Source: an uncultured Helicobacteraceae bacterium
Lineage (GTDB): Bacteria; Campylobacterota; Campylobacteria; Campylobacterales; Helicobacteraceae
Length of the DNA stretch: 64,000 nt
Assembly (NCBI GenBank): GCA_934668765.1
Contig: CAKUOH010000003.1
Span: forward strand, 49,211 to 113,210
Direction: 5' to 3'
The notes beneath the pieces were generated by a model, which saw nothing but the letters and a program-made list of their open reading frames with translations, ran no database searches and was not told the DNA's origin. Positions 1,241 through 64,000 of the stretch are shown here, in pieces. The number at the start of each line of letters is the position of its first letter. Position 1 is the stretch's first letter. The translations under genes and the position numbers were made by a program.

Positions 1241-2363
1241 AATCTAACGCAAAATTTATAAAGCTAATTAGTGGGATTGTCTTACCATTTATTACAATCT
1301 CATCATTTAAATCAATCGTAAGCACCGCGATTTCAAGCCCCATAAAATCCACGCCTTTTAGCAAATCCACTATCATTTCCTTGCTTTTAAATGGCATTAA
1401 AATATAGCCATTTTTGCCACAAATTAGCGGGATTTTCTCGCTGTAAAAAATCTCTGCACCCTTTTTTTGTGGACTAGATTCGCGCTCCAAAGATTCGCCA
1501 CTAGATTCGCGCTGATTTGCGCTAGATTCACGCCCCAAAAGCTCCAAAAACACCATATTTTCAAAACTTGCCATAAAATTGCGCTCATAACTTATTGCAC
1601 TTCGCAAACTAAAATCAAACAAAAACGCCTTTTTGGGGGCTTTTGGCTTATTACAATGCGCCACAAAGCGCACGATTCTACGCTCTTCAAACTCATCTAT
1701 CACGCCATAAATCCTATTTTTTGACATTTTGCTATCTTTTTTTAAAATATTATAGAGCTGAAAAATGCTTACAGGGCTTGATTGAAAGCGCACTAGCTCC
1801 AAAAAAATATCCATATTTTCCCGCATTATCGCAATTAGCATTTTTTGCTTTGCCTCTAATTTGGCAAAATCGCGCAATGACAAATACTGCGAGTTAAGCA
1901 TAATAGGGAGATTCCCAAACTTTATAAATTTCTCAAAAAGCTCTTTTAGATTTAGCTCTTGCGCATCAAAACTGATAAATTCCTCAAAATTTAGGGGCAA
2001 AATCTCTAATCGCTCAAATCCGCGTAAATTTGCGCTAGATTCGCTTATAGTGATGATGTTTGCAATATTTGGCAGGTTTGGAAAATTATTAGCAAAATCG
2101 TGCGGAATATTATCCAAAATAAGCAAATCGCATTTTTTTTCAAAGGCGATTTTTAGTAGTATCTGCCCTATCAAATCCCGCGAATTGCGCAAATCTGCAA
2201 AGTCGATATAAAGCGGATTTTTAAAATTTCTTGCATAATTTAGCGCGATGCTACTCTTGCCACTTTGTGGCGCACCAAAAATATGCACTTTTGGCGCACC
2301 AATCCCAAATCTACGCGGATTTAGATGTTGCTTTAATTTTGCGTTTGAAATCTCAAAAATCAT
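1239..2363 (-). CDS. AAA-type ATP-binding protein
   Basis: About 374 residues. A Walker A motif (GAPQSGKSS) lies near residue 32 and a Walker B-like segment (CDLLILDN) near residue 80. The arrangement suggests an AAA_14/archaeal-ATPase type protein with a C-terminal DUF4143-like region, but I do not know its substrate. The start at 2363 gives an ATGA overlap with the stop of the glycosyltransferase; a longer start at 2408 would overlap that gene by 49 bases and is less likely. Residues around 285-305 are a low-complexity Glu-Ser-Ser-rich stretch written by repeated GATTCGC words (1485-1535), probably a tolerated loop. It is the last gene of the leftward run from hypF. Confidence 0.7.
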   Translation of the reverse strand: MIFEISNAKLKQHLNPRRFGIGAPKVHIFGAPQSGKSSIALNYARNFKNPLYIDFADLRNSRDLIGQILLKIAFEKKCDLLILDNIPHDFANNFPNLPNIANIITISESSANLRGFERLEILPLNFEEFISFDAQELNLKELFEKFIKFGNLPIMLNSQYLSLRDFAKLEAKQKMLIAIMRENMDIFLELVRFQSSPVSIFQLYNILKKDSKMSKNRIYGVIDEFEERRIVRFVAHCNKPKAPKKAFLFDFSLRSAISYERNFMASFENMVFLELLGRESSANQRESSGESLERESSPQKKGAEIFYSEKIPLICGKNGYILMPFKSKEMIVDLLKGVDFMGLEIAVLTIDLNDEIVINGKTIPLISFINFALD

Positions 2364-3466
2364 CTGCGATTTTGCTTTGCCCAAAAATTTGCGCGAATCT
2401 CCACGCAATTTAGGGCAAAATATAAGGCTTTGCGAATCACAAAAAAGTAGATTCGCGAGAGTTCGCGGGTGAGTTTTTGGTAGAATTGCATTTTGGGCTT
2501 TTCGCGCCCTGAAATGGTGCTTTGCGTGGCATTTGCCGAATCTTCAGTGATGATAAAGGGCAAAAAAATGATATTTTTAACGCTGTGAATAAAAAACATA
2601 TCCATATAATCATCAACGCAAAATAGCCAAAATCTTGCATTTTTGATAAATTTTTGTGCAGCTTTTGGCGTGAGATAATAGCCCTGTCCTCCGCTAACAT
2701 TACCAAAAGAAATATAAAAATTATTGCAAATCTGCGACATTTTTCGCTCAAATAAATAATATAAGCGCACATATTCAAATGGTGATTTTATAATTTCTAC
2801 GATTTGGCAAAAATCTTGCATAAAATCTATGTCGTCCTCCAAAACTACGATAGGTAAATCTAGCGCAACGCACTTTTCCCACAAGCGATAATGTGAGCTA
2901 AAACACGCAATTTCGCCAAAACTCAAATCCTTACCCTTTACAAAGCGCGTGAGCTTGGAGCTGTATTGCTTGGGGATATTTGCGGAGTTTATTTTAAAAT
3001 CGTTTGCATCAGTGGCAGGAAAAAAGTGAAAATGCAATGCAAATTCCGTGCTTTGCGTAGAAATTAAAAAAATATCATCATTGCGAGATTTTGGATTCGC
3101 AAAATCGCGGCAATCCATTTGATTTTTTTGGATTGCTTCGTGCGAATCTGCGATTCGCCCTCGCAATGACGATTCGGATTCCCCCTCCCTTGCGGAGGGG
3201 GTTGGGGGGTGGGTAGAGTCGCTATTTGAAAATTTAATGCTACTATTTGTTTGTGAATTTACCCACCCCCTTAATCCCCCTCCGCAAGGGAGGGGGGGAT
3301 AATCTTTTCGCAATGACGGGGCGGAGCGGAGGGGGCGGATAATTTTCTCTCCATCAATATAAATCGCACTAAATCCCCTAATCTTAGCGATTTTGCGCCT
3401 CATAGATTCATATCTATCCTTTGAACGCGCCAAATTTATGATAAAAATCTCTATATTTTGCACCAT
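2360..3466 (-). CDS. Glycosyltransferase family 25 (LOS/LPS biosynthesis) with in-frame repeat insertion
   Basis: 368 residues. The N-terminus (IFIINLARSKDRYESM) and the VVLEDDIDF motif identify family GT25, enzymes that add galactose or similar sugars to lipooligosaccharide at the cytoplasmic face of the inner membrane. Residues ~44-130 do not belong to the family: they are translated from TCATTGCGAG-type repeats (3077-3170) and a C-rich palindromic element (3181-3298). The frame stays open through the whole insert, so the product is presumably made with an ~85-residue extra loop between the first beta-alpha unit and the catalytic region. It follows hypC by 23 bases and overlaps the ATPase gene by four. 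Whether the enzyme is still active cannot be told from sequence. Confidence 0.8.
   Translation of the reverse strand: MVQNIEIFIINLARSKDRYESMRRKIAKIRGFSAIYIDGEKIIRPLRSAPSLRKDYPPLPCGGGLRGWVNSQTNSSIKFSNSDSTHPPTPSAREGESESSLRGRIADSHEAIQKNQMDCRDFANPKSRNDDIFLISTQSTEFALHFHFFPATDANDFKINSANIPKQYSSKLTRFVKGKDLSFGEIACFSSHYRLWEKCVALDLPIVVLEDDIDFMQDFCQIVEIIKSPFEYVRLYYLFERKMSQICNNFYISFGNVSGGQGYYLTPKAAQKFIKNARFWLFCVDDYMDMFFIHSVKNIIFLPFIITEDSANATQSTISGREKPKMQFYQKLTRELSRIYFFVIRKALYFALNCVEIRANFWAKQNRR
3077..3170. repeat. TCATTGCGAG-type palindromic repeats inside the GT25 gene
   Basis: Two units. The first begins TCATTGCGAG at 3078 and ends GGCAATCCA near 3117; the second, inverted, begins GGATTGCTTCG at 3130 and ends CTCGCAATGA near 3169. 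On the coding (minus) strand they read S-L-R-G ... H-E-A-I-Q and D-C-R-D ... S-R-N-D, in frame. Confidence 0.85.
3181..3298. repeat. C-rich palindromic element with inverted ends, inside the GT25 gene
   Basis: Left arm 3181-3214 (CCCCCTCCCTTGCGGAGG then GGGTTGGGGGGTGGGTA) and right arm 3260-3298 (TACCCACCCCC then a CCCCCTCCGCAAGGGAGGGG core) are inverted copies around a 45-base centre. Each arm is itself a CCCCCTCC...GGAGGGGG palindrome. Very similar elements occur at 25771-25884, 49796-49912 and 63667-63908. Confidence 0.9.
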
Positions 3467-4393: not shown

Positions 4394-6925
4394 TTACCTT
4401 TCAAAGTCTCCGCGCAAAAATGCCACGATTTGCCCAACTGCGATTCCGCCGTCATTTGTGGGAATTTCGCGATTAAAATAGTGCAAAATCTTATGCGCTT
4501 GAAATTTGCGCGAAATTTTATCACAAAGAATCTTATTTGCAAACACGCCACCGCTAAAAATCACTTTTAGATTCGGCGCATTTTGACGCAAATCAAGCGC
4601 GATTTGCAGAATAATTTGCGCAAGAGTGTTTATAAATTTTGTAGCGATAAGCGCAGGATTGCCGTAATCGCGCACAATTCCACGAATGATTTTATCAATG
4701 CAAATCTCGCCATTTTTAATCTCAAAATTATAATGCGCCCATATTTTAGGCGTATAAAGAGACTCGATATATCCGCCACTCTCGCCCTCAAAACTCTGCG
4801 ATTCTAATCCGCACATAAATGCCACAAAATCAAAGATTCGCCCCACAGAGCTTGTTTTTGGCGTATTTAGATTTTTTTGAAACATTTGGTAAAAAAGTGC
4901 GACATTTTGAAATTGCGATTCAAGTGGAATCGCCCTACCATACACGCTAAAAAGAACGCCAAGCGCGATTTTGCGAATATCTTTTATAGCAGATTCGCCC
5001 CCTAACAGCGCAAAACGGCTAAAATGGGCGATTCTATATAATTTATGTGCGTTAGCACACCGAATCTCGCCCATTTCGTTAGCTTTGCTTTCTCGAAATG
5101 ACAGATTTTTCGATTCTAGATTCGCAGAATCTACAACGGAAGGAATCGCAGTAGTGCTTTCGTAGTTTTTTGGGATTTTTGGGGTGGAGACTAGACTTGG
5201 AGTCTGCGACACCCCAAAAATCCCAAAATCTGCGGAATGACTACCCGAGAACGAATTGCCCAACCAAAAAAACTCCCCACCCCAAATTGTGCCATCTTCG
5301 CCTAATCCCGTGCCATCAAAAACCACACCCAAAATATTTTCATCATTTTTGTGCGCCAAATTATTATCAAATAGACAGCTATAAAAATGTGCGCGGTGGT
5401 GGTAGATTCGCGCTATTTTCACACTAAAATCTTGTCCGCCCCATTTTTGCACCAAAGATTTTGCGATTTTGCTACTCTCATAGCCACTATGACAATCGCA
5501 TAAAATCACACTAGGACGCACATCATAGAGTTTTAGCAAAAACTCAATCTCGCGCCTATAAGATTCTATCACGCTAATATTATCCAAATCCCCTATATAG
5601 CGCGAAATTAGCATATAGCCATTAAAAAATAGTGCAATTTGGCTCTTTTGGTGCGCACCTAATGCTAAAATCACTTCATTGCTCTTAAATTTTATCTGCC
5701 TTAAAAATGGGTAATCGCCCCGCCCTGCGCGGAGATTCATCACTACTCCATTACGCAAGATTCGCTTTAAACTATCATCGATGGGATTTATAATCGCGCG
5801 ATTATAATCAAGCAAATAATCATAAATATGCGCTATTTTTGCCTGTGCTACGCTCTTATCGATGATAATAGATTCGCCACTCAAATTTGCCGAAGTAAAA
5901 ATCAAAGGTTTATCGCAATCTTTAAAAAGTAGCTTATGAAGCGCAGAATAGGCGATTATAACGCCATAAGTATTTAAATGGCAACTCAAATTTTGTGGCA
6001 AAGCGACTTTTGGGCGATTTAGCAAAACAATGGGCGCGGATGGCGATAGAAGCGCGGTTTCCTCAACCTTTGAAATGTGAAAATATTTTTTGGCACTTTT
6101 TATGTCGCTAAACATTATCGCAAAGGGCTTTCGTGGGCGGGATTTTCGCGCTCTTAACTCTGCAATCGTGCGCTCCCTAACCGCGCAAATAAGATTAAAT
6201 CCGCCAATTCCTTTAAAACAAATGATTTTGCCCTGCTTTATTTTCTCACGCACAAAGGCAAAAATCGCGCTTTGATTCGTAAAATCCACGCTAGATTCGC
6301 GCAAAATCATAGTGCCGTTTTTATCAAAAACCGCAAGTTTTATCCCGCAATCACTGCAACTATTTGGCTGTGCGTGGAATCGGCGATTTTTGGTATCGCT
6401 GTATTCTTGTGCGCACGATTTACACATTTTAAAGCCACTCATTGCCGTTCGCTCCCTGTCATAAGGCAGATTTTGAATGATTGTCCATCTTGGACCGCAA
6501 TTTATGCAGTTTATAAAAGCATAGTTAAAACGCCTATCTTGCGGACTTTGTAGCTCTTTTTGGCAATCTTTGCAAAGTGCCAAATCACGCGGAATCGCAG
6601 AATAAAAATCTTTAAGATTCGCGCTTTTTTGGTTTTTTTGATTTGTTTTACTCGCCAAAATACAAAAATTGCTAAAAACTTTACTTTTTTCTACATTGCG
6701 AATCGAAATGCGCGAAATTATCGCATTTTGCGGAGGTTTCGCCTTTAATATTGCCACAAAATCTGCAATTTTTTGCGAATCTTTTGCCTGTATCAAAATA
6801 CTTATATTAGAATTTGTATTTTTTACATAACCATTTACTTGTAATTTTCGCGCTAAATTATACACAAAAGGGCGAAATCCTACGCCCTGCACGAGTCCTG
6901 TGATAAAAATTTTTTTGGTTATCAT
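4394..6925 (-). CDS. hypF: Carbamoyltransferase HypF with an extra loop of repeat origin
   Basis: 843 residues, against ~750 usual. Order of parts: acylphosphatase domain (VQGVGFRPFVY, residues ~12-22), two Cys4 zinc fingers (CKDC...CINCG and CKSC...CSDCG, ~115-190), YrdC-like domain (RPRKPFAIMF, ~260), then the Kae1/TobZ-like domain with FDGTGLGEDG (~535) and FSGGVFANK near the end. HypF makes the thiocarbamate on HypE that becomes the cyanide ligands of the hydrogenase iron. Between GGEFFWLGN and YRIAHFSRFALLGGES about 60 residues are added (roughly 558-628), written by a GGGATTTTTGGGGTG palindrome and a TCATTTCGAG-type repeat. First gene of the hypFBC operon. Confidence 0.95.
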   Translation of the reverse strand: MITKKIFITGLVQGVGFRPFVYNLARKLQVNGYVKNTNSNISILIQAKDSQKIADFVAILKAKPPQNAIISRISIRNVEKSKVFSNFCILASKTNQKNQKSANLKDFYSAIPRDLALCKDCQKELQSPQDRRFNYAFINCINCGPRWTIIQNLPYDRERTAMSGFKMCKSCAQEYSDTKNRRFHAQPNSCSDCGIKLAVFDKNGTMILRESSVDFTNQSAIFAFVREKIKQGKIICFKGIGGFNLICAVRERTIAELRARKSRPRKPFAIMFSDIKSAKKYFHISKVEETALLSPSAPIVLLNRPKVALPQNLSCHLNTYGVIIAYSALHKLLFKDCDKPLIFTSANLSGESIIIDKSVAQAKIAHIYDYLLDYNRAIINPIDDSLKRILRNGVVMNLRAGRGDYPFLRQIKFKSNEVILALGAHQKSQIALFFNGYMLISRYIGDLDNISVIESYRREIEFLLKLYDVRPSVILCDCHSGYESSKIAKSLVQKWGGQDFSVKIARIYHHRAHFYSCLFDNNLAHKNDENILGVVFDGTGLGEDGTIWGGEFFWLGNSFSGSHSADFGIFGVSQTPSLVSTPKIPKNYESTTAIPSVVDSANLESKNLSFRESKANEMGEIRCANAHKLYRIAHFSRFALLGGESAIKDIRKIALGVLFSVYGRAIPLESQFQNVALFYQMFQKNLNTPKTSSVGRIFDFVAFMCGLESQSFEGESGGYIESLYTPKIWAHYNFEIKNGEICIDKIIRGIVRDYGNPALIATKFINTLAQIILQIALDLRQNAPNLKVIFSGGVFANKILCDKISRKFQAHKILHYFNREIPTNDGGIAVGQIVAFLRGDFER
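5168..5228. repeat. 61-base palindromic element inside hypF
   Basis: TTTTGGGATTTTTGGGGTG (5168-5186) is perfectly inverted at 5210-5228 (CACCCCAAAAATCCCAAAA), with an inner AGACT (5188-5192) / AGTCT (5201-5205) pair. It is translated in hypF as part of a loop rich in Ser, Thr and Pro. A second, TCATTTCGAG-like unit lies just beside it (about 5060-5105). Confidence 0.9.
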
Positions 6926-22366: not shown

Positions 22367-25345
22367 TTAAATATCATTTTTATTTAAAAATTCTTGCAAA
22401 ATCTTTGTAATTTTTTCGCCTTCAAATTGCGCACTAAATTGTATCTTTGCGCCAAAAATCCCACTTTTTTCCAAAAACTGCTCGGCGCGAGATATTTTTA
22501 GATTTTCTACCTTGCTTAAATCACGCAAATCTTTGCCCTTGCTCTCAATTATGCAATATATCTGCTCACCATTTTCACACTTCAAAACATAAGCAAAATC
22601 TGGCGTATAGCTTATCCCACCTGCCACAGGGATTTTTAACGCATTTTTAGGAATTTTCGTAAAAACCTCCACTTTTTCAATATCATCTGATAAGATATTT
22701 TCTCTCTCAATTTCCGAGTCATAAAACAATTCATCAAAAAGATAGCTGGGCGGAATTTTTTTATTCTCCTCTTCGTTGCCTTTTTGTCTGCCTAAATTGC
22801 CACTTTCTATGCTCGGCAATTCTTTGCCTTTTTCGTCCGTAAAACTCGTAGGGTGAATACTGCTTGCGATTTTGACAAATCCCACTTCAAAGCTACTTGT
22901 CGCATTTTCAAACAAAAATCTATTAAATTCACTTTTTAGTAGGGCAACATTTCGCGCATTAAAAAATTGCGATTCAAAGCCCACAGATTCTAGCACTTTG
23001 CGTAATGTCCCCACATTTACCAAAAGTGCGTTTGCGCTCTGCTGTAAAAACTCGCTTTTGCCCATTGCTTGATATTGCATATTTTTGCCATCGCTCACAT
23101 TTTCTTTGCGCAAAATTTCTTGCAAACTCGCGCTATTGTCCCTCATTTCTAGTCGTTTGGTTGTCGTGGTGATATTTGATTGCACAGCTTGATTTTGCAT
23201 AAATTCACGCAAAAATACTTCAAGCAATGCGCTAAATTCTCCCTCGCTTTTGATTTTATACTCTAAAATCACTTTTTGATTGATAGTCTCCCAAAGTTCT
23301 CGTAAAATTTTGTAATTATCACGGCGGATATGCGCCTTTGTTTGTGTTTTGCCACTTTGTCGCACTTTGTCTTTTTGTAAATTTTCTTTGTCAAAGGCGT
23401 TTGGATAAAGTTCTTTTAGCCTTAACATACCATTTTCTAAAAACACCAAATTCTCGTCAATCACGCCTTTTTCCACTAGCTCCATTTGTAGTTTTAGCCT
23501 GCTTAACCCTGAAACTTCACAAAGTTTATCTATCATCACTTCATCTAGCTTTGTAGCATTTTCACTAAATATCACGCCACTTTGGGCATTTATATCACTT
23601 ATAAGGCTTTGCGCAAAATCTCGCTCACTATCATTTACTATATAATGCAAATAATGCGCCCCAAAATCACCATCATTCCCCACGCGCGACATATATTCAT
23701 TCACAGGCAGCCTAAGCCCACGCCCAACCTCTTGGAGTTTGCTTATCTCGCTTCCGCTAGAACGCAACTTGCATATCACAAAGACATTTGGATTGTCCCA
23801 GCCCTCACGCAAAGTCCATTTAGAAAAGATAAAACGCCTTATATTCTCGCAGCTTAACAGCTTTTCTTTGTCGTGTAAAATTTCATTTATCTCACTTACG
23901 ACATACTCTTCTTTATTTGAGTTATCTTTGGAAAAATACCCGCCGCTAATGCCTCGCAAATCACGCAATGACTTTTCTAAATACTCCTTATAAAACCCAC
24001 TCGCCTCTTTTAAATTCTCACGCATTAAATTCTCGGCGATTTTTTCAAACTCGATTCGCAAAATCTCATTTTGCTTATTTTCGCTACGATAGCTTACAAT
24101 ATCCTCGATAAAAAATAGCGTGAGTGGCTTTATCTTTGTCTCGCTTTGCATTAGCACCTTTTCTAGCGCGAAATGCGCTTGCAGTGCTTCGGTAAGCATT
24201 TGTGTTTGCATTTGTGGCAAATACGCATTTAGGTTAATCCTATCGCCCTTTTTTAGCTCGTTGTTATCGTCTTGATTGTTGAGTTTAAATTTTGTGATTG
24301 CGTTTGCTTTTTTGGTTTTCATCTCCACACACAAATGCGCTAAATTCTCATCTATCACGCCCAAACTCTCACCAGCATTTAATCTCACTTGCCTAAGTGC
24401 TCCGCTTTTGCCCTGCTCTTTGAGTTCAAATTTGGCTTGATTGTTTTCTATGCCGCTAAATTCTACCCATTTGTGCTTTTCGCTACCTTGTGCCTCGCAG
24501 ACACTGATTTCCACGCCTTTGACTAGATTGTCATTAAACGCACTAATGGCGTTGAGTTGGTAGATAAGATTGTGATATTTATTTCCTCGCCCGTCCTCTT
24601 TAAATGTCGCGCCATAGCGAAAAATCATCTGCGGATTTATGGCTTTTTCTGTTTTATTCACAATCCTCGCCCACGCCTTATTTGTCTCATCAAACCTATG
24701 CGGCTCATCTACAATGCACACCGCATTTACCGCATTAAGCGCGTCATAAGGATTGCTAAATTCATCACACAAGTTTTGTTCATAATCCTCATTCATCGAA
24801 GTCGCCGTAAGCATTTGGGCGTTTATGATTAAAAAATGCACCTCTTTTGGATTGTCATTTTCTATAAAATCACGCAACCCATTTGGCATTAGCTTTCTGC
24901 TTTTTTTGCCGGCTTGTTTTTTAGCTTCGATTGCATTAGCAATGATTTCAAGCTCAAATTCGCTTTTAAAATGCTCTCTTGTAGCAACGGCTTGTAAAAA
25001 GTTAAGCGTGTTGGCTTTTATGGCTAGGCTTGGGACGATGATGATAAATTTTCGCAACCCAAATTCCTTACACAACTCTAATGCCATTTTAGTGTAGGTG
25101 TAAGTTTTTCCCGTCCCTGTCTCCATACATATATCAAACACCCTTGTAAGCGTGTGCAAAGAATTTATATTCTCTCGTTTTTGCAGCTCTCTTAAATTTG
25201 CGCTTAAATTTGAGTCGTTAATGCTTATCTTTGGGTTAAAACTTTTGTTTAAGATTGCTTCTACGCGCGCACCTTTTAAGGCTAACAAAACACAATCTAT
25301 CGCCTTGCTTTGGTGTGGCAAATTTCTTTCATAACTAAATCCCAT
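22367..25345 (-). CDS. res: Type III restriction endonuclease subunit Res
   Basis: 992 residues, normal length. Helicase part with Walker A (METGTGKT, ~73) and DEPH box (IVDEPHRF, ~208). C-terminal nuclease motif PD...ESK (P915-D916 with E934 and K936 by my count) intact. With Mod it cuts DNA ~25 bases from an unmethylated asymmetric site after ATP-driven sliding. The Mod stop and Res start overlap as TAATG. All key residues appear intact, so the enzyme is probably active if mod is. Confidence 0.95.
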   Translation of the reverse strand: MGFSYERNLPHQSKAIDCVLLALKGARVEAILNKSFNPKISINDSNLSANLRELQKRENINSLHTLTRVFDICMETGTGKTYTYTKMALELCKEFGLRKFIIIVPSLAIKANTLNFLQAVATREHFKSEFELEIIANAIEAKKQAGKKSRKLMPNGLRDFIENDNPKEVHFLIINAQMLTATSMNEDYEQNLCDEFSNPYDALNAVNAVCIVDEPHRFDETNKAWARIVNKTEKAINPQMIFRYGATFKEDGRGNKYHNLIYQLNAISAFNDNLVKGVEISVCEAQGSEKHKWVEFSGIENNQAKFELKEQGKSGALRQVRLNAGESLGVIDENLAHLCVEMKTKKANAITKFKLNNQDDNNELKKGDRINLNAYLPQMQTQMLTEALQAHFALEKVLMQSETKIKPLTLFFIEDIVSYRSENKQNEILRIEFEKIAENLMRENLKEASGFYKEYLEKSLRDLRGISGGYFSKDNSNKEEYVVSEINEILHDKEKLLSCENIRRFIFSKWTLREGWDNPNVFVICKLRSSGSEISKLQEVGRGLRLPVNEYMSRVGNDGDFGAHYLHYIVNDSERDFAQSLISDINAQSGVIFSENATKLDEVMIDKLCEVSGLSRLKLQMELVEKGVIDENLVFLENGMLRLKELYPNAFDKENLQKDKVRQSGKTQTKAHIRRDNYKILRELWETINQKVILEYKIKSEGEFSALLEVFLREFMQNQAVQSNITTTTKRLEMRDNSASLQEILRKENVSDGKNMQYQAMGKSEFLQQSANALLVNVGTLRKVLESVGFESQFFNARNVALLKSEFNRFLFENATSSFEVGFVKIASSIHPTSFTDEKGKELPSIESGNLGRQKGNEEENKKIPPSYLFDELFYDSEIERENILSDDIEKVEVFTKIPKNALKIPVAGGISYTPDFAYVLKCENGEQIYCIIESKGKDLRDLSKVENLKISRAEQFLEKSGIFGAKIQFSAQFEGEKITKILQEFLNKNDI

Positions 25346-27465
25346 TAAGCAAACCTCGCTCGCACAAGGATTTTAAGCCCTTTTTTATTAGCATAAGAAG
25401 TTATGCCCTCTGCTAATTCGCGGATTTTCGCACTATCAAAGGCATTGTTTAGATAGCTTATCTCTTTAATCACAAAATCTTTGTCGCTATCGATTCGCGA
25501 AATCAAAGCTTTTAACGCACTAGAATCAAAGCCACCATTTAGCAAGTAGAGATTTTCCCCTGCCAAAATTGCGCTATATCCGCCTAAATCCACTTGAATA
25601 TTTTGCGCATTTAATGGCGTAAAATCTTGCAATCTAAAAGTCTCCAAAAGCGCGTTTTTATCACTATCGCTTAAATCAACCAAACTGCCACTTTGTGAAT
25701 CTAAATTATTTTCACGCAATTCATAGATTTTAAATCCTAAATCCGCAGATTCTCTCTCTTTTGCGAAAGATACCCCGCCCCAAACCCCTCCCGCAAGGGG
25801 AGGGGCTTCTTTTGATTCCCCATCCCTTGCGAGAAAATCGCCATTTTGTTCCCCCTCCCTTGCGGAGGGGGCTAGGGGGTGGGTATTGTCATTGAGAGAA
25901 TCGCGTAGCGATTCGTGGCAATCTATTGTATTTTGTTTGGATTGCTTCGGCGATAAATCGCCTCGCAATGACGAAGTAGCGATTTTGTTTGCCGCGCGTT
26001 TAATGCGCTCTTTGGTAATGTCAAAAATCGTAGGATTTTCGCTTCCTAGCTCATTTTTACAAAACTCATAAGCCGTTTTTGATTTGCTTTTGTCGATAAC
26101 TTCATCTAACTGCACCAAAATAAACTCTCTATTGCCTTTATCTTGGGCGTTTAACTCCATAACCGCTTGGGCAGTCGTTCCGCTTCCTGCAAAAAAGTCT
26201 AAAATAATATCGTTTGAATTTGGCGTGGTTGAAAGTTGCAAAAGCGTTTTTATTAAATTTAGTGGTTTTGGAGTATCAAAAATTTTTTGATTATTAAATA
26301 AATTCAAAATTTCTTTCGTTGCGTCTGTTGTAGTTCCATAGTCGGTAAAAATTGTTCTAGTTTTTATGATTTTTTCCTTATCTTTTACTTCGTCAAAATA
26401 AATTACTTCATAAGGCGTTAATCTTCCTTTGCTATTTTCTTGCCAATAAATATGTTCGCTATCTAAATTTTCAGGTTTTTTACGCCAGTTCCCTTCTTTA
26501 CCATTTGGGGCAACAGGATAAACATCATTTCCGTTTGGGTCTTTGATAGGATAAAAAAGGCTCGGTGCATTTTCTCTTAAAGCATTGCTTCCCCATTTTT
26601 CTAATTTCATTATTTTTGCTTTTTTGCCATTGATGATTTTGTTAAAATCTGCCTCATCGTGTGCTCGTTTATCATCATTTATTTCCCATTCTTTTTTTGT
26701 ATAACATAAAATATACTCGTGTTCTTTGGCAAAGTATTGTGAATCTTGACTTCCGCCTTTTTTCTTTTGCCAAATAATATTAGCCACAAAATTTTCCTCC
26801 CCGAAAATTTCATCACATAAAAGTTTTAAATTTGCCTGTTCGTTATCGTCAATGCTAATAAAAATCACGCCGTCCTCGCGCAAAAGCTGCCTAGCGATAT
26901 ATAAACGCGGATACATAAAACTAAGCCACGCGCTATGCGTGCTAGAATTTTTAAGCGTAAGATTAAGTATGCTGCTTGCTTCTTCAATCTCTATATTTGC
27001 CATTTGCGCCAAACTCTGCGGCGTGAAACTTCGCTCGTCATTGTAGATAAAGTCTCCATTGCCTGTGTTATAAGGCGGGTCGATATAAATCATCTTTACT
27101 TTGCGGTAATAAGCGTTTTTTAGGTGTTTTAGCACTTCTAAATTGTCGCCTTTGATAAGGACATTTTTAGAATTTGCATTTTGCGGCTGTGCGTTGTGCG
27201 CGGAATCTTGCGCAATCAGCGTGTGTGTAGGTAAATGACGCAAGAGTTTAGCATAAGACTTGCCAAGCCAATTTAGGCTGTATGACTCTTTTGAGAGTGA
27301 AAACGCCGCTTCATTTTCTAAATCTTGCGTTGCTGTGTTTGTTTGTGCGTTATTTTCTTGTGCCAAATCCAAAATAGCCTCTTGAAGTTTTTGTGGCATT
27401 AAATCGCCGTTTTTGTCAAAGCACTGCGGAAAATGCTCTTTAAGTGCGTGGAATCTATCTAACAT
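25345..27465 (-). CDS. mod: Type III DNA methyltransferase Mod with in-frame repeat insertion
   Basis: 706 residues. DPPYNTG catalytic motif (~128) precedes the AdoMet motif FAGSGTT (~425), the beta-class order for N6-adenine methyltransferases. The target recognition region lies between them. Residues ~493-575 are foreign: they translate two TCATTGCGAG-type repeats and a C-rich palindromic element (25771-25973), replacing the loop before the conserved GFKIYEL block. The frame is open throughout. No simple tetranucleotide repeat of the H. pylori mod type is seen, so classic phase variation is absent. Couples to res by a one-base overlap. Confidence 0.95.
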   Translation of the reverse strand: MLDRFHALKEHFPQCFDKNGDLMPQKLQEAILDLAQENNAQTNTATQDLENEAAFSLSKESYSLNWLGKSYAKLLRHLPTHTLIAQDSAHNAQPQNANSKNVLIKGDNLEVLKHLKNAYYRKVKMIYIDPPYNTGNGDFIYNDERSFTPQSLAQMANIEIEEASSILNLTLKNSSTHSAWLSFMYPRLYIARQLLREDGVIFISIDDNEQANLKLLCDEIFGEENFVANIIWQKKKGGSQDSQYFAKEHEYILCYTKKEWEINDDKRAHDEADFNKIINGKKAKIMKLEKWGSNALRENAPSLFYPIKDPNGNDVYPVAPNGKEGNWRKKPENLDSEHIYWQENSKGRLTPYEVIYFDEVKDKEKIIKTRTIFTDYGTTTDATKEILNLFNNQKIFDTPKPLNLIKTLLQLSTTPNSNDIILDFFAGSGTTAQAVMELNAQDKGNREFILVQLDEVIDKSKSKTAYEFCKNELGSENPTIFDITKERIKRAANKIATSSLRGDLSPKQSKQNTIDCHESLRDSLNDNTHPLAPSAREGEQNGDFLARDGESKEAPPLAGGVWGGVSFAKERESADLGFKIYELRENNLDSQSGSLVDLSDSDKNALLETFRLQDFTPLNAQNIQVDLGGYSAILAGENLYLLNGGFDSSALKALISRIDSDKDFVIKEISYLNNAFDSAKIRELAEGITSYANKKGLKILVRARFA
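25771..25973. repeat. Composite palindromic repeats inside mod
   Basis: C-rich arms at 25771-25805 (TACCCCGCCCC then CCCCTCCCGCAAGGGG) and 25851-25884 (CCCCCTCCCTTGCGGAGGGG then GCTAGGGGGTGGGTA) are inverted to each other. Then come TCATTGAGAG...GTGGCAATCTA (25889-25925) and inverted GGATTGCTTCGG...CTCGCAATGACG (25939-25973). All are translated in mod. Confidence 0.9.
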
Positions 27466-33626: not shown

Positions 33627-33676
33627 TAAAAATTTTAGATTTTGATTAAAGAGTGCATTTTGATTTGTAGATTCTT

Positions 33677-33862
33677 GGATTGCTTCGATTCGGCAGTGCC
33701 GAATCTCGCAATGACGGCATATCCCGTCATTCTTAAGCGAGTGAAACGAGCGAAGAAACCAAAAAGATTTTCTAGTAATTCTTGGATTCTTCGGCTTTCT
33801 TGCGAAAGCATCAGAATAACGATTCATTTTTTTTGAATTGCTTCACTTCGTTTGCAATGACA
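33677..33862. repeat. Repeat cluster between ndk and the TonB receptor gene
   Basis: Three elements fill this gap: inverted TCATTGCGAG-type unit (33677-33715, centre GATTCGGCAGTGCCGAATC), a different element CGTCATTCTTAAGCGAG...CATCAGAATAACG (33725-33821, with GTGAAACGAGCG near its left end and CGGCTTTCTTGCGAAAGC hairpin at its right), and GAATTGCTTCACTTCG...GCAATGACA (33835-33862). The short open frames across here have no coding character. Confidence 0.8.
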
Positions 33863-49154: not shown

Positions 49155-51266
49155 CTAAAATGCGACTAAAAGCAGTGCTAATGCCACAAAGATTCCGCTA
49201 AACATAAAGATAAGGTTTTGCGTTAAGATTCCACTCTGCGATTTTCTTGCATTTTGTCCGCTTTGAATGAATATTCGCGCGATTAAATCCACCACAAAAT
49301 CAATGATTTTTAAATCAATCTCTTTCCATAAAAATTCTGCCACTGCTTTATAAGGGCGCACAAAAATAATGTCATAAAGTTTGGGGATATAATATTGATT
49401 TTTTAGTAGTTTATAAATGCAATTTTCTTGTATTTTTGCTTTGTCGATGCGCCACCATTTGCTTTGTTTGTGATAGATAAAAATCGCAAAAATAATCCCA
49501 CAAATTGCCACAAATAGCGCGACTGTGATTAGAATCGCAATCGTGGGCGAATCTAAATGTGTTTCTTTTGGGCTAATAAATAACCCTACAAAATCCATAA
49601 AACTATGCTCAAAAAATCCAGCGATGATAGCTAAAATCGCTAATGGCGTCATAGCGTAGAGCATAACTTTTGACGCTTCGTGTGGCAGTGCGTGTGCGTT
49701 GTCTTGTGGCGAATCGTGCGCGTGAGTTTTGCTAGATTTGTGTGCCATTTTTGAGTTTTGTTCCCCCTCCCTTGCGGAGAGATTCCCAAAAGATTCCCCC
49801 TCCCTTGCGGAGGGGGTTAGGGGGTGGGTAGATTCATTATTTGCAAATTTCTCGCTACTATTATTTTGAGCGTCAAACCCACCCCCTTTGTCCCCCTCCG
49901 CAAGGGAGGGGGAAATATTAGATTCTGTGCTTTTATAGCGTTTCGGTGCAAAAAATACTAACATTATTAGCCGAAAGCTATAAAACGCCGTTAGAAACGC
50001 GCTTAATAATAGCACCGCATAAATGCCAAAATTCCCCTCCACAAATGCCACTTCCAAAATCTTATCTTTGGAGAAAAACCCTGCAAATGGGTAGATTCCA
50101 GCTAGAGCCGTTGATGCGATTATCATTAAAATCGCGCTAAATCTTAACGGCTTCCACAAAGCCCCCATTTTGCTAATGTCAAGCTTATCATTCATTGCGT
50201 GCATTACATTTCCCGCGCCCAAAAATAGTAGTGATTTGAAAAATGCGTGGGTGGTTAGATGAAAAAGTGCGATTGCATAATACCCAAGCCCCCCAGCCAC
50301 AAACATATAGCCAAGTTGCGATAGTGTCGAGTAGGCGATAATGCGCTTTAAGTCATTATTGACAAGTGCCATACTTGCCGCAAAAATCGCCACAAACGCG
50401 CCCAAATACGCAATGATTAGCGAAATATGCGGAATCAAATCATAAATAGGATTCGCACGAATGACTAAATAAACCCCTGCCGTTACCATTGTAGCAGCGT
50501 GAATTAGCGCAGATACAGGCGTAGGACCCTCCATAGCATCCGCTAGCCAAGTATGCAATGGGAATTGCGCGGATTTTCCCATCGCACCAATAAAAAGCAA
50601 AATGCCTATTAGAGTTAGCGTCCATTCGCTACTTTCGATATTTGCGCTGTCATTTAATGCGGTGAAAATATCTACATAGCGCACACTTCCAAAGGTAAAG
50701 AAAAGCAAAAATATGCCAAGTAGCATTCCTAAATCTGCCACACGATTCATTATAAACGCCTCATTTGCAGCAAAAGACGCGCTTTTGCGATTATGCCAAA
50801 AGCCTATTAGCATCCAAGAGCAAAGCCCTACGCCCTCCCAGCCGATAAAAAGCCCCAAAAAATTATCGCTCATCACAAGGATTAGCATTGAAAATACAAA
50901 CGCACTCAAAAACGCAAAAAATTTATTGAAGCATTCATCGTGTGCCATATAGCCCACAGAATAGATATGCACAAACAGCGAGACGATTAGCACCACCAAA
51001 ATCATCACGCAAGATATGCCATCAATCACAAAGCCAAAGTCTATGCTAAATCGCCCTGCGACAATCCACGGGGCTAGATTCGCACTTAATATTGTGCCGT
51101 TTGCCACTGCGAGTAATGCCAAAAGTGCGATTATTAGCGCGAATCCTAGCGCGACTATCGGCACGATTGCAGCAAGTAGATTTTTTTTGCTAAAAGCAAA
51201 AAGCGTGGCAAAAAGAGAGCCAAATAACGGCGCAAAAAGTATCAACTCTACAATAAAACCTTGCAT
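49155..51266 (-). CDS. nuoL: Complex I subunit NuoL with in-frame repeat insertion
   Basis: 703 residues, ~90 more than usual. Core motifs GWEGVGLCSWMLIGFW (~145) and HTWLADAMEGPTPVSALIHA (~235) are intact, and the C-terminal long amphipathic helix and last helix are present. After FAPKRYKS about 75 residues (~445-520) translate C-rich palindromic elements (49763-49912) before HEASKVMLYAMTP resumes; this is a surface loop between membrane helices 13 and 14. Open frame throughout, so complex I is presumably built with this loop. Confidence 0.95.
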   Translation of the reverse strand: MQGFIVELILFAPLFGSLFATLFAFSKKNLLAAIVPIVALGFALIIALLALLAVANGTILSANLAPWIVAGRFSIDFGFVIDGISCVMILVVLIVSLFVHIYSVGYMAHDECFNKFFAFLSAFVFSMLILVMSDNFLGLFIGWEGVGLCSWMLIGFWHNRKSASFAANEAFIMNRVADLGMLLGIFLLFFTFGSVRYVDIFTALNDSANIESSEWTLTLIGILLFIGAMGKSAQFPLHTWLADAMEGPTPVSALIHAATMVTAGVYLVIRANPIYDLIPHISLIIAYLGAFVAIFAASMALVNNDLKRIIAYSTLSQLGYMFVAGGLGYYAIALFHLTTHAFFKSLLFLGAGNVMHAMNDKLDISKMGALWKPLRFSAILMIIASTALAGIYPFAGFFSKDKILEVAFVEGNFGIYAVLLLSAFLTAFYSFRLIMLVFFAPKRYKSTESNISPSLAEGDKGGGFDAQNNSSEKFANNESTHPLTPSAREGESFGNLSAREGEQNSKMAHKSSKTHAHDSPQDNAHALPHEASKVMLYAMTPLAILAIIAGFFEHSFMDFVGLFISPKETHLDSPTIAILITVALFVAICGIIFAIFIYHKQSKWWRIDKAKIQENCIYKLLKNQYYIPKLYDIIFVRPYKAVAEFLWKEIDLKIIDFVVDLIARIFIQSGQNARKSQSGILTQNLIFMFSGIFVALALLLVAF
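49763..49912. repeat. C-rich palindromic elements inside nuoL
   Basis: A lone half-unit CCCCCTCCCTTGCGGAG (49763-49779), then a full element with left arm 49796-49830 (ends GGGTGGGTA) and inverted right arm 49877-49912 (starts ACCCACCCCC), centre ~46 bases. Translated on the minus strand as SPSLAEGDKGGG and THPLTPSAREGES. Confidence 0.9.
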
Positions 51267-56318: not shown

Positions 56319-57080
56319 TTACGCCCTTTGAATTGCTATATTTTTAAATGGGTAGCTTTTGGATTCTAACCGCACACCGCTTAAAATGCCGATGATTCCG
56401 CTAAATTTTTCATCTAATTTGCAAATAGCGCAAATCTCTTGTGAATCTAGCGCAAATCTAATCTCTTGTTTATCGCCCAAATGCCACGCACGAGCAAATT
56501 CGCGTGAGATTTTTAGCGTGGGATTCGCGCCTAAATCGCGTGAATCTTGCTTTAAATCTTCGCTTACTTTGTTTAAATCTTGCGCTACAAAAATCACGCA
56601 ACCATTATGCTCTGGCAAATTTGCCAAAGATTCAAGCGCAAAGTCCTGTGGCAAGGATTCACATAACACTTCAAATTTAGAGTGCGATTTTAGGGCGGAG
56701 AGCATATTTAAAATACTATTTTTTCTTGCGTGGTGCGTAATATCTTCGCCCACAATAAGCAGTGGTTTTTTGCGTGTGAAAATTTGATTTTTTAGCTCCG
56801 CTAATTCCTCTTCGCTGACATTTGATTCCGCACTCAAATAGCCGTAATCAAGGGATTTTATAAAGCTATCTAGCTTTGAATCTGCGCCCTTATCGGCAAA
56901 TTCATATAGCAATAACGCCACTACTCCCTCTTCTGTGCCGACTTCATAGCGCACATAAAAATCGCATTCGCAATCCAAAAATGGATAAAAGCACACATCA
57001 CATTTTGACAATATCGCAGGATTGTAAAAGCCGAGCGTTACGATAAAATCATAGTTTTTTAGCGTGGATTTGCTAATCAT
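56319..57080 (-). CDS. NuoF-position protein (HP1265-like), not a NuoF homologue
   Basis: 253 residues, no FMN/NADH-binding or Cys4 cluster motif of NuoF. It has DVCFYPFLDCECDFYVRYEV and LLIVGEDITHHARKN, somewhat reminiscent of NuoG's molybdopterin fold. It fills the nuoF place between the 113-residue gene and nuoG as HP1265 and Cj1574c do. In C. jejuni published work ties the equivalents to flavodoxin as electron donor. Overlaps its upstream neighbour by four bases. Confidence 0.85.
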   Translation of the reverse strand: MISKSTLKNYDFIVTLGFYNPAILSKCDVCFYPFLDCECDFYVRYEVGTEEGVVALLLYEFADKGADSKLDSFIKSLDYGYLSAESNVSEEELAELKNQIFTRKKPLLIVGEDITHHARKNSILNMLSALKSHSKFEVLCESLPQDFALESLANLPEHNGCVIFVAQDLNKVSEDLKQDSRDLGANPTLKISREFARAWHLGDKQEIRFALDSQEICAICKLDEKFSGIIGILSGVRLESKSYPFKNIAIQRA

Positions 57081-57418
57081 TTGTCGCTCACTTTTTCATT
57101 GCAAGATTCTACGCTTTGCGTGGAATCGTGGCAATTTATATTTGAATCGTGGATTGCTTTATTTGCCTTGCTTTCTTGCAATGACGAATCTTTTGTTTTT
57201 TTTACCACTATCGTCCAATCCACTTCATTAAATCGCAAGGAATTCATAAGTGTCCAGCCATTTTGCGCCACTAAATTTGCACTTTTTTCAACGCCACTAA
57301 AATCGCCCACTTCAAAAAGAAAAATCCCCACTTCGCCGTTTTTTAGCTCACGCTCCACAATCTCACACATTCGCACATCAAATGCCGCGCCCAAATGCCG
57401 TAAATCAAACCGCTTCAT
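57077..57418 (-). CDS. NuoE-position protein (HP1264-like) with repeat-coded tail
   Basis: 113 residues; H. pylori's is ~76. Core ([17 protein letters not shown]...[13 protein letters not shown]) ends near residue 72. The remaining ~40 residues come partly from a TCATTGCAAG-type repeat (57150-57186), read [12 protein letters not shown]. No thioredoxin-like [2Fe-2S] motif of NuoE. Overlaps nuoD by four bases. Confidence 0.85.
57150..57186. repeat. TCATTGC-type repeat in the NuoE-position gene
   Basis: GGATTGCTTTATTTGCC...TTGCAATGA on the plus strand. Closely matches the repeat in hypF at the protein level (S-x-x-E-S-K-A-N). Confidence 0.8.
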
Positions 57419-58644
57419 CTATCTACTTCGCCAAAGATGATATTTGTCGAGCCGATAATGGTAACGACATCAGCAAGATAATGTCCGGGCAATAAATCCT
57501 GTAACACTCCGCAGTGATAAAAGCTTGGCGCACGGACTTTTAGGCGATATGGATATGGTTCGCCGACTGAATTTATAAAAAAGCCAAGTTCGCCTTTGGG
57601 TGATTCGGTGGGCGCATAAGATTCGCCTTTGGGTGGGCGCATACCCTGCGTGGTTAGCACAAAATGCTGCATTAGTGAGTAATTTTGCGTCATAATCTGC
57701 TCTTTTGGCGCAGAAATGTATTCTGGCGCGTCTGCCATAATATCTTTTGGCGATTTTGGATACATTGCAATAAGCTGACGCAAAATGTGGGCAGACTGCC
57801 TAATCTCTTCCATATATAGCAAATATCGCGCATAGCAGTCGCCATCATTTGCATAAGGCACATCAAAATCTAACTCGCCATATAGTTCATAAGGCTCTTC
57901 TTTGCGAATATCCCATTTAAAGCCACTTGCACGAAGCATAACGCCACTTAATGCCCATTTTTTAGCAAGCTCAGGGCTGATTTTACCGACATTTTCTAGT
58001 CTTGCCCTCCAAATGCGATTTTTTTCTAGTAGATTTTCGATGCGCCCGATTTCTTTTGGCAGTCTATCCAAAAACGCACCCAAATTTTCGCACCAATTTT
58101 GTGGCAAATCAAGTGGCACACCGCCGATTCGCAAACTTGAATGCGTGAGTCTTGCCCCACAATAATCCTCCATTAAATCCAATCCATATTCGCGCTCTTT
58201 GAATCCATAGAGCATTATGGAGAGTGCGCCCACATCCATCCCGTGAATGGATATGAAAAAAATATGTGAAATTATGCGATTTAGCTCTAATAGCATTGTG
58301 CGGATTATTTGCGCGCGGAGCGGGATTTGTAGTCCTAGCAATTTTTCCACACTTGCGCAAAAGGCATAGTTATTTGAAGTAGCGTTAATATAGTCCATTC
58401 TATCTGTGGTAGGCAAAAACTCGTTGTAAATCATATTTTCTGCCATTTTTTCCATACCGCGATGAAGATACCCAATATCTGGCGTAGCTTTGGTAATCAT
58501 CTCGCCATCTAGTTCTAAAATAAGTCGTAACTGCCCGTGCGCTGATGGATGCTGGGGACCAAAATTTAAAATCATCTTATCATCATCGCGCTCAAAGATG
58601 ATATTTTCAAATTGCGGTTTTAGCTTTGTGTAAATTTGCTTCAT
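57415..58644 (-). CDS. nuoD: Complex I subunit NuoD
   Basis: 409 residues. [14 protein letters not shown] at ~27 and [14 protein letters not shown] at ~57 are the NuoD blocks that shape the quinone pocket. Follows nuoC directly (next base). Confidence 0.97.
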
Positions 58645-63289: not shown

Positions 63290-64000
63290 TTGTCATTGCG
63301 AGATTCGCTTACAAACCCTGCATCGCAAAAGCGATTTGTGGCAAAGCAAAAAAGAATCAAAAGTAAATTCGTCATTGCGAGAAAAACGCAGTTTTTCGTG
63401 GCAATCTAAACTTTTCGTCATTGTGAGAATCTGCGCTTTTGTAAAAAAACAAATCGTCATTGTGAGACTTGCCGCTAGGTAAGTCGTGGCATCCAAATTT
63501 TCTGTCATTGTGAGATTCGCTTACGAACCCTGCAAATCCATAGGATTTTTGTGGCATCCAAACTTTATTTTCCCCCTCCCTTGCGGAGTTGTAGTTATCT
63601 TTTTTTCCATTGCGCGTGGTAACACCACACTTCCCCCCTCCCTTGCGGAGAATTTTGCATTTCTTTCCCCCTCCCTTGCGGATGGGGATTAAGGGGGTGG
63701 GTAGAATATTTTAGATTGCTTTGTTTTCTTTGTTTGCTCACAATGACGCTTTACTTTATCTTTGTCATTGCGAGAAGTAGATTTGTTAGAATCTGATTCG
63801 TGGCAATCTATATTTTGTTGGATTTTTTTGGATTGCTTTGTTTTTTTAGCAAAATCTCACATTAGCGATTTTACCCACCCCCTTAATCCCCCTCCGCAAG
63901 GGAGGGGGAAAGAGAAAAGAAACCTACCTACAATAAGGGAGGGGGAGAGATAAAGTGAATCGCCATCCAACAAGGGATGGGCTTAAAATTCTGTCATTGC
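63290..64000. repeat. Dense repeat region after flgL
   Basis: No gene visible. TCATTG(C/T)GAG-type units start near 63292, 63372, 63418, 63455 and 63504. C-rich half-units lie near 63573-63660. A full C-rich element has arms at 63667-63703 and 63872-63908, enclosing TCATTGCGAG...GTGGCAATCTA (63763-63808). Further degenerate copies run to the window edge, ending in CTGTCATTGC. Short open frames here are repeat artefacts. Confidence 0.85.

Follow-up and report, generated by a model that had tools for sequence, protein, structure and literature searches.

The 64,000-nucleotide stretch of Helicobacteraceae DNA analysed here (the window) carries near its start a gene coding for a GT25 glycosyltransferase. 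In a profile search, the Pfam GT25 family (PF01755) matched residues 135-288 of the open reading frame (ORF) with an E-value of 3.6e-31, and reading of the alignment placed before this match a stretch of about 94 residues that does not belong to the family. The initial annotation had described two TCATTGCGAG units and one C-rich element adding about 85 residues at positions 3077-3298, in a frame open across non-family DNA and between the first beta-alpha unit and the EDD region. The insert and its C-rich element were found and the frame stays open over the whole insert, along 368 codons, but the extent had to be widened to the 94 residues given above. Moreover, the two TCATTGCGAG matches, at 3078-3087 (+) and 3160-3169 (-), are not separate units: they terminate a single 92-bp palindrome, designated element A. 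In the same way, the C-rich core sits at 3184-3201 (-) and 3276-3293 (+), on the two arms of one element of about 119 bp, designated element B, in which inverted arms of 23-46 nt surround a spacer. Both elements are multi-copy: allowing at most one mismatch, TCATTGCGAG matched the window 27 times (mean of 6.2 and maximum of 14 in 100 shuffles), and the C-rich core, with at most three mismatches, matched 9 times (mean of 0 in 100 shuffles). The features of the window are collected in Table 1.

Table 1. Hosts and repeat elements in the window, with the evidence on which each assignment is based.
Feature	Position	Strand	Details and basis
GT25 glycosyltransferase gene, host of A and B	2360..3466	-	368-aa ORF; Pfam PF01755; AlphaFold2 model
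Non-family stretch in GT25, in frame, predicted disordered	3065..3346	-	About residues 41-134; alignment and pLDDT
Element A, 92-bp palindrome ended by inverted TCATTGCGAG; peptide SLRGRIADSHEAIQKNQMDCRDFANPKSRND	3078..3169	.	Motif matches; fold z -4.67
Element B, C-rich, inverted arms 3179-3201 and about 3260-3296; peptide PPLPCGGGLRGWV...THPPTPSAREGE	3179..3297	.	Core and arm searches; fold z -9.08
Partial A copy, 1 mismatch	3307..3316	-	Motif search
HypF gene, host of element C	4394..6925	-	843 aa; ORF, Pfam, PDB alignment
HypF insert, residues 555-626: C with exact 19-bp arms 5168-5186 and 5210-5228; A-like half TCATTTCGAG at 5092-5101	5048..5263	-	
Type III DNA methyltransferase gene, host of A and B	25345..27465	-	706 aa; Pfam N6_N4_Mtase 123-452, T3RM_EcoP15I_C 602-697
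In-frame A and B insert of the methyltransferase, about residues 497-573, between its two Pfam domains	25747..25977	-	
Clustered A copies not covered by any ORF of at least 100 aa	28570..28861	.	Motif search
A copies between ORFs	33665..33860	.	Motif search
NuoL gene, host of B	49155..51266	-	703 aa; Pfam, alignment
In-frame B insert in NuoL, residues 445-527; arms 49794-49816 and 49892-49914	49686..49934	-	
Dense A and B mosaic downstream of ORF 60674-63226, reaching the window end	63291..64000	.	Motif searches

An AlphaFold2 model of the GT25 protein, built from 62 aligned sequences, places the insert as the initial annotation had it: strand 3-11, helix 16-27 and strand 34-37 come first, the insert follows, and the EDD motif lies at residues 210-212, of which E210 and D211 are invariant in all 62 sequences. 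The pLDDT reaches at least 90 at 232 of the 368 residues and falls below 50 at residues 59-124 and 126-134; the insert is thus predicted to be unstructured on an otherwise confident fold. The best PDB fold matches to the model were chains of human COLGALT1 (GLT25D1), with modest TM-scores of 0.34-0.37.

P0001-P0017, the closest homologues, differ in the length of the insertion site; these 17 proteins have 327 to 561 aa. In P0003, P0004 and P0007 (327 aa), the A peptide is kept and B is reduced to a remnant of its end. As for homologues free of the repeat and having the same loop, which had been named as evidence against insertion, the family genomes (designated by G numbers) gave a divided answer: loops of similar size are present at this site in G001 (roughly 70 residues) and G004 (roughly 95 residues), but they differ in sequence, being Asp/Ser-rich and of low complexity, and the loop is short in G005 and G007, with frames of 271 and 265 residues respectively. 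An exact-core search detected neither A nor B in the G001 and G004 loops, so that loop expansion there does not need the elements, and the GT25 site can accommodate loops that arose otherwise. Two such Asp/Ser-rich insertions, both lacking A and B cores, are present in the G004 gene (L007); one of them is close to the domain's C-terminal part.

The other hosts of the window code for HypF, a type III DNA methyltransferase and NuoL. The HypF insert contains a further palindrome, element C, which spans 61 bp across its exact arms; these arms occur at a single DNA place in the window. In the solved structure 3vth, the counterparts of HypF residues 553 and 626 are residues 523 and 527. In strain 23-1045, whose HypF is 80% identical to that of the window, the same loop contains C and an extra B, whereas the window protein has C only; the 23-1045 protein also has a 21-residue insertion without any element. 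The NuoL insert is missing in all 30 aligned relatives (581-626 aa), the loci of which were fetched out of 99 matching genomes. Folded as single-stranded DNA, element C of HypF gave a z-score of -8.11, and neither this value nor those of A and B (Table 1) was equalled by any of 200 shuffles. Under the uniform rule described below, and with C excluded, three of the nine A/B clusters of the window lie inside ORFs, one at an edge and five outside. The mosaic at the end of the window includes 46-nt arms at 63662-63707 and 63868-63913, and an A-like inverted pair (TCATTGCAAG at 57096 and 57175) was observed in 57081-57414, between ORFs 56319-57080 and 57415-58644.

Protein searches with the GT25 insert alone retrieved 18 proteins, and those with the B-bearing stretch of a FolC-type Mur ligase retrieved 10. 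In a tally over all 92 retrieved proteins (BLASTP at an E-value of 0.001), the A peptide was carried by 15, the B peptide by 20 and the C peptide by 6. Sixteen host families other than GT25 were represented. Era, RNase III, KdsC, RecG, HypF, TrmB, an ABC ATPase and a sialidase are named after the source annotation; the identities of MurI, GltX, BioD and FolB rest on PDB matches; and RbfA, RimM, CoaBC and FolC are what we take the hosts to be from their Pfam accessions. Helicobacter sp. 23-1044 and 23-1045 are the named sources of many of these hosts. Since a protein collection contains intact frames only, gene-breaking insertions cannot be counted from it.

Internal inserts could be placed against solved structures in MurI, GltX (two inserts), BioD, FolB, HypF, Lon, KsgA and LysA, with some weakly aligned pieces (one FolB flank at 6.2, one KsgA flank at 6.5 and the last GltX piece at 9.7 bits). 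In MurI, residues 170-295 fall between the adjacent residues 193 and 194 of 3uhf. The element is terminal in Era, RNase III and RbfA, where the start or the end of the protein may be misplaced. Altogether, A, B and C are palindromic and lie in frame in unrelated genes, and relatives or homologues of known structure lack them at the corresponding positions. In one retrieved protein, P0071, an N-terminal half that we recognise as presumably BioF-type is joined via element sequence to a FolC-type C-terminal half; this protein is probably an assembly chimera, or else the product of recombination between elements.

The distribution of the repeats was followed in 121 genomes of the family. TCATTGCGAG was found in 103 of them, mostly at chance-like counts; the highest counts were those of G060 (422), G117 (356), G081 (297) and G057 (187), and among the matches listed the reversed control pattern gave at most 12 in any genome. 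The B core was present in nine of the 121 genomes, mainly G049 (48), G117 (19), G119 (11) and G120 (7). Full A palindromes, with a gap of 40-70 bases, were detected in G117 (40), G119 (16), G057 (16), G120 (12), G060 (1) and G116 (1), and none with this gap in G081 and G121. With 422 A words and a single full-palindrome place in G060, the in-gene copies of this genome must be mostly single or otherwise spaced units.

To score in-gene copies uniformly, A and B matches within 150 bp were merged into clusters, a simple greedy procedure delimited the ORFs (minimum 100 aa), and a cluster was counted as internal when at least 150 bp of ORF lay on either side. Beyond the window, stretches of related genomes were scored. 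For G060 and G057, 20 stretches of 20 kb each were taken from the main contigs (2.07 and 2.08 Mb), 19 of them following a 90-kb grid and the last one off it. For G049, G005, G117 and G119, stretches around listed copies were taken in listing order, copies at contig ends being left out; those of G117 and most of those of G119 start from full palindromes. In G060, 40/64 clusters were inside ORFs, 4 at edges and 20 outside, and in G049 the corresponding numbers were 25/38, 4 and 9. The other genomes gave 1/32 inside, 5 at edges and 26 outside (G057), 1/15, 2 and 12 (G005), 0/28, 1 and 27 (G117), and 1/31, 7 and 23 (G119). In the pool of G117, G119 and G057, ORFs enclose just 2 of the 91 clusters, 13 more lying near ORF ends; together with the 1/15 of G005, this indicates that in-gene insertion is no fixed property of the element. 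Compared with this pool, the share inside ORFs is higher in the window (3/9; Fisher P = 0.005), and for G005 the test gave P = 0.37; these comparisons are between differently sampled genomes.

A Pfam match over the curated cut-off was obtained for 27 of the 40 in-ORF clusters of G060 (11 were scanned without a match and 2 were unscanned) and for 20 of the 25 of G049 (5 scanned without a match). Named from Pfam, the hosts include PolA, Lon, PheT, KsgA, SerA and LysA in G049, and CarB, a pterin-binding enzyme, an MgsA/RarA-type ATPase, a Kdo transferase and a heavy-metal ATPase in G060, where some genes hold several clusters each. The sole in-ORF case of G057 sits between two carbamoyltransferase domains. 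From the 400-kb sample, one would extrapolate to about 200 in-ORF clusters on the 2.07-Mb main contig of G060. The Lon gene of G049 (L125, 3339-6167) has, besides its A-bearing insertion, a second one (about residues 626-666) in which neither the A nor the B core is present. In G119 (L103, 42-7556), A lies inside a 2504-aa ORF with PBECR1, ddrB-ParB and LPD23 domains, resembling a phage-like polyvalent protein, which is a possible route of transfer between strains.

Among the genomes compared, the nearest to the window by NuoL identity are G004 (77%), G001 (76%) and G005 (74%), as against 64% for G049 and 63% for G060. As G049 and G060 are thus the more distant, gene invasion is probably seen in separate lineages. 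We consider it reasonably likely that one and the same repeat exists in two states within the family, near-intergenic in G057, G117 and G119 and gene-invading in G060, G049 and the lineage of the window, which would amount to a proteome-wide insertion of loops by non-coding repeats, with a lineage-specific switch in insertion or in survival.

The reading frames of the elements were analysed in the same material. In 19 Pfam-supported hosts of G060, the left ends of A use all three phases (13, 5 and 1 cases), and B is read in three phases on one strand and in two on the other, giving different peptides. By residue modulo 3, the lengths of A are distributed 8, 10 and 8 in G117 (26 pairs) and 3, 9 and 3 in G119 (15 pairs). 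The mean number of open frames of A is 1.69 in G117, against 2.38 in shuffles, and 2.47 in G119, against 2.37; with two pairs each, the window gave 2.00 against 1.88, G005 2.50 against 1.65 and G049 2.00 against 1.35. For B pairs, the values were 1.50 against 0.95 in the window (n = 2) and 1.80 against 0.35 in G049 (n = 5). As all seven B pairs scored lie in ORFs, six internally and one near an end, survivorship can explain this excess. Elements designed to be coding were rejected as an explanation, given that the lengths of A in G117 and G119 are without multiple-of-3 bias and that their open frames are below or near those of shuffles. That the right end of A is never read in its TGA phase is a consequence of how an ORF is defined and does not count as evidence. 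Frame openness thus looks like a matter of survivorship and not of design. By our estimate, about one in ten unselected in-gene insertions would stay open (one third for length times about one third for frame), and the many intact decorated ORFs therefore suggest that the hosts are under selection.

The properties of the elements were compared with those of known repeats. Rickettsia palindromic elements (RPEs) are described as palindromic repeats of about 150 bp in several families (PMC10969869, PMC3733652), and of the 44 copies reported first, nearly half were in frame inside ORFs (PMC10969869). A and B are, like RPEs, multi-copy palindromes of about 100-150 bp and all three elements lie in frame in unrelated genes; unlike them, they reside in Helicobacteraceae, in a different phylum. 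The likeness is to the published description of RPEs, and several reading frames are used here. The in-ORF share of RPEs is similar to that of G060 (40/64 sampled clusters), but the copies are probably more numerous in all here; in view of the RPE figure, the share in itself is not new. In its behaviour, element A is like an RPE. The proposal of the initial annotation, that these are elements carried inside proteins in the manner of those of Rickettsia, is supported by the same peptides in many unrelated proteins, by the insertion points relative to relatives and structures, and by two other genomes in which most of the examined A/B clusters are within ORFs.

The CGTC-tagged REPs are described with an AT-initial stem of 8-9 bp, a loop of 4-5 nt, a CCA tail, an occurrence as dimers and no dedicated transposase; they form classes CGTC-1 to CGTC-4, and RPE-6 (CGTC-1) and RPE-4 (CGTC-4) of R. 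conorii, located inside genes, belong to them (PMC3733652). Element A similarly has a [C/T]GTC tag followed by AT and, in the window, a CCA or CTA tail after GCAAT, and it forms pairs with the tags outward without a matching RAYT transposase. Counting the six commonest tags, CGTC or TGTC precedes ATTGCGAG in 10/13 cases in the window, 26/31 in G005, 75/84 in G117, 39/59 in G119 and 21/29 in G049. The tail is CCA or CTA in 10/10 cases in the window (CCA in 6), 22/24 in G005 and 19/25 in G049. A differs from these REPs by its span from ATTGCGAG to GCAAT (median 24-34 nt), which is longer than their stem and loop, and by its tails in G117 and G119, which are mostly not CCA: CAA is the main tail in G117 (56/78) and the commonest in G119 (17/43). 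On the basis of these motifs, A appears to resemble the class of repeats that holds RPE-4 and RPE-6. B is similar to MITEs in its terminal inverted repeats, a likeness that concerns the arms alone. Intragenic REPs are also reported from Opitutus terrae, Thauera, Xanthomonas and others, mostly coding for 20 to 30 residues and, in clusters, for up to 82, although REPs are mostly intergenic overall (PMC3733652); they share with A, B and C their location within coding genes and have different sequences. Concerning mobilisation, the Y1 (RAYT) transposase family PF01797 was detected in 29/121 genomes, with one match in G119, five in G116 and none in G049, G056, G057, G060, G081, G082, G117 and G120. 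Mobilisation by RAYT was rejected: PF01797 does not track A copy number and is missing from most A-rich genomes. No mobilising enzyme emerged from the analysis.

It is highly probable, in our opinion, that these are non-autonomous palindromic repeats that landed in genes, where their persistence required a preserved frame free of stops and a loop able to tolerate them. The GT25 insert would then consist of two such repeats: A, a pair resembling CGTC-REPs, and B, which is C-rich and has inverted arms. They would belong to at least three families (A, B and C) presumably spread in these genomes by machinery acting in trans. To judge from the frame data, the insertion step would be blind to frame. 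In-gene copies would persist only with a frame-keeping length, a stop-free frame and a surface loop tolerating a disordered peptide, and purifying selection on the host gene would remove the remaining ones; some lineages may retain in-gene copies on a large scale, others nearly confining the repeat to intergenic DNA.

The order of events could also have been the reverse: surface loops would expand with low-complexity peptide rich in Ser, Asp, Asn and Glu, by slippage and recombination, and palindromes would afterwards move from loop to loop by homologous exchange and not by transposition into virgin sites. The GT25-site loops of G001 and G004 without A or B cores are compatible with this possibility, as are the variable site length in P0001-P0017, the element-free 21-residue insertion in the HypF of 23-1045 and the Ser/Asp/Glu-rich stretches seen by eye beside many elements in the retrieved proteins. 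However, insertion also took place into otherwise conserved short loops, as in MurI between adjacent residues, and the NuoL loop is short in 30/30 aligned relatives, so that we hold this order to be possible and rather unlikely. A selection for the element peptides themselves, as modules useful for linking, binding or regulation, could be invoked from the recurrence of the same peptide in many housekeeping enzymes; this is very improbable, in view of the several frames of B with their different peptides, the use of all three phases by the left ends of A (though 13/19 are in one), the predicted disorder of the GT25 insert and the unrelated functions of the hosts. Misassembly at repeats, pseudogenes or miscalled ORFs might account for P0071, for several carriers on short contigs and for the terminal cases, if start sites are in error. 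As a general explanation, such an artefact is barely conceivable: the P0001 and P0002 clusters comprise 10 and 14 member sequences, 27 of the 64 clusters on the 2.07-Mb main contig of G060 are in Pfam-supported ORFs, and the domains align on either side of the inserts in PDB alignments.

It is in Rickettsia that palindromic elements within proteins are best known, and elsewhere REPs provide scattered examples; the main text of PMC3733652 does not name Helicobacter. A literature search, which covered a minority of subscription journals, gave no report of such elements in Helicobacter among the matches listed. What is new here is the phylum, the co-occurrence of three families, the likely number of copies and the existence of gene-invading and intergenic lineages with a common repeat. 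The carriers include the genes for Lon, PolA, PheT, CarB, MurI and NuoL, and relatives keep the repeat out of their genes. The Helicobacteraceae thereby offer a comparative system for the movement of repeats, for the tolerance of genes to them and for the origin of long disordered protein loops.
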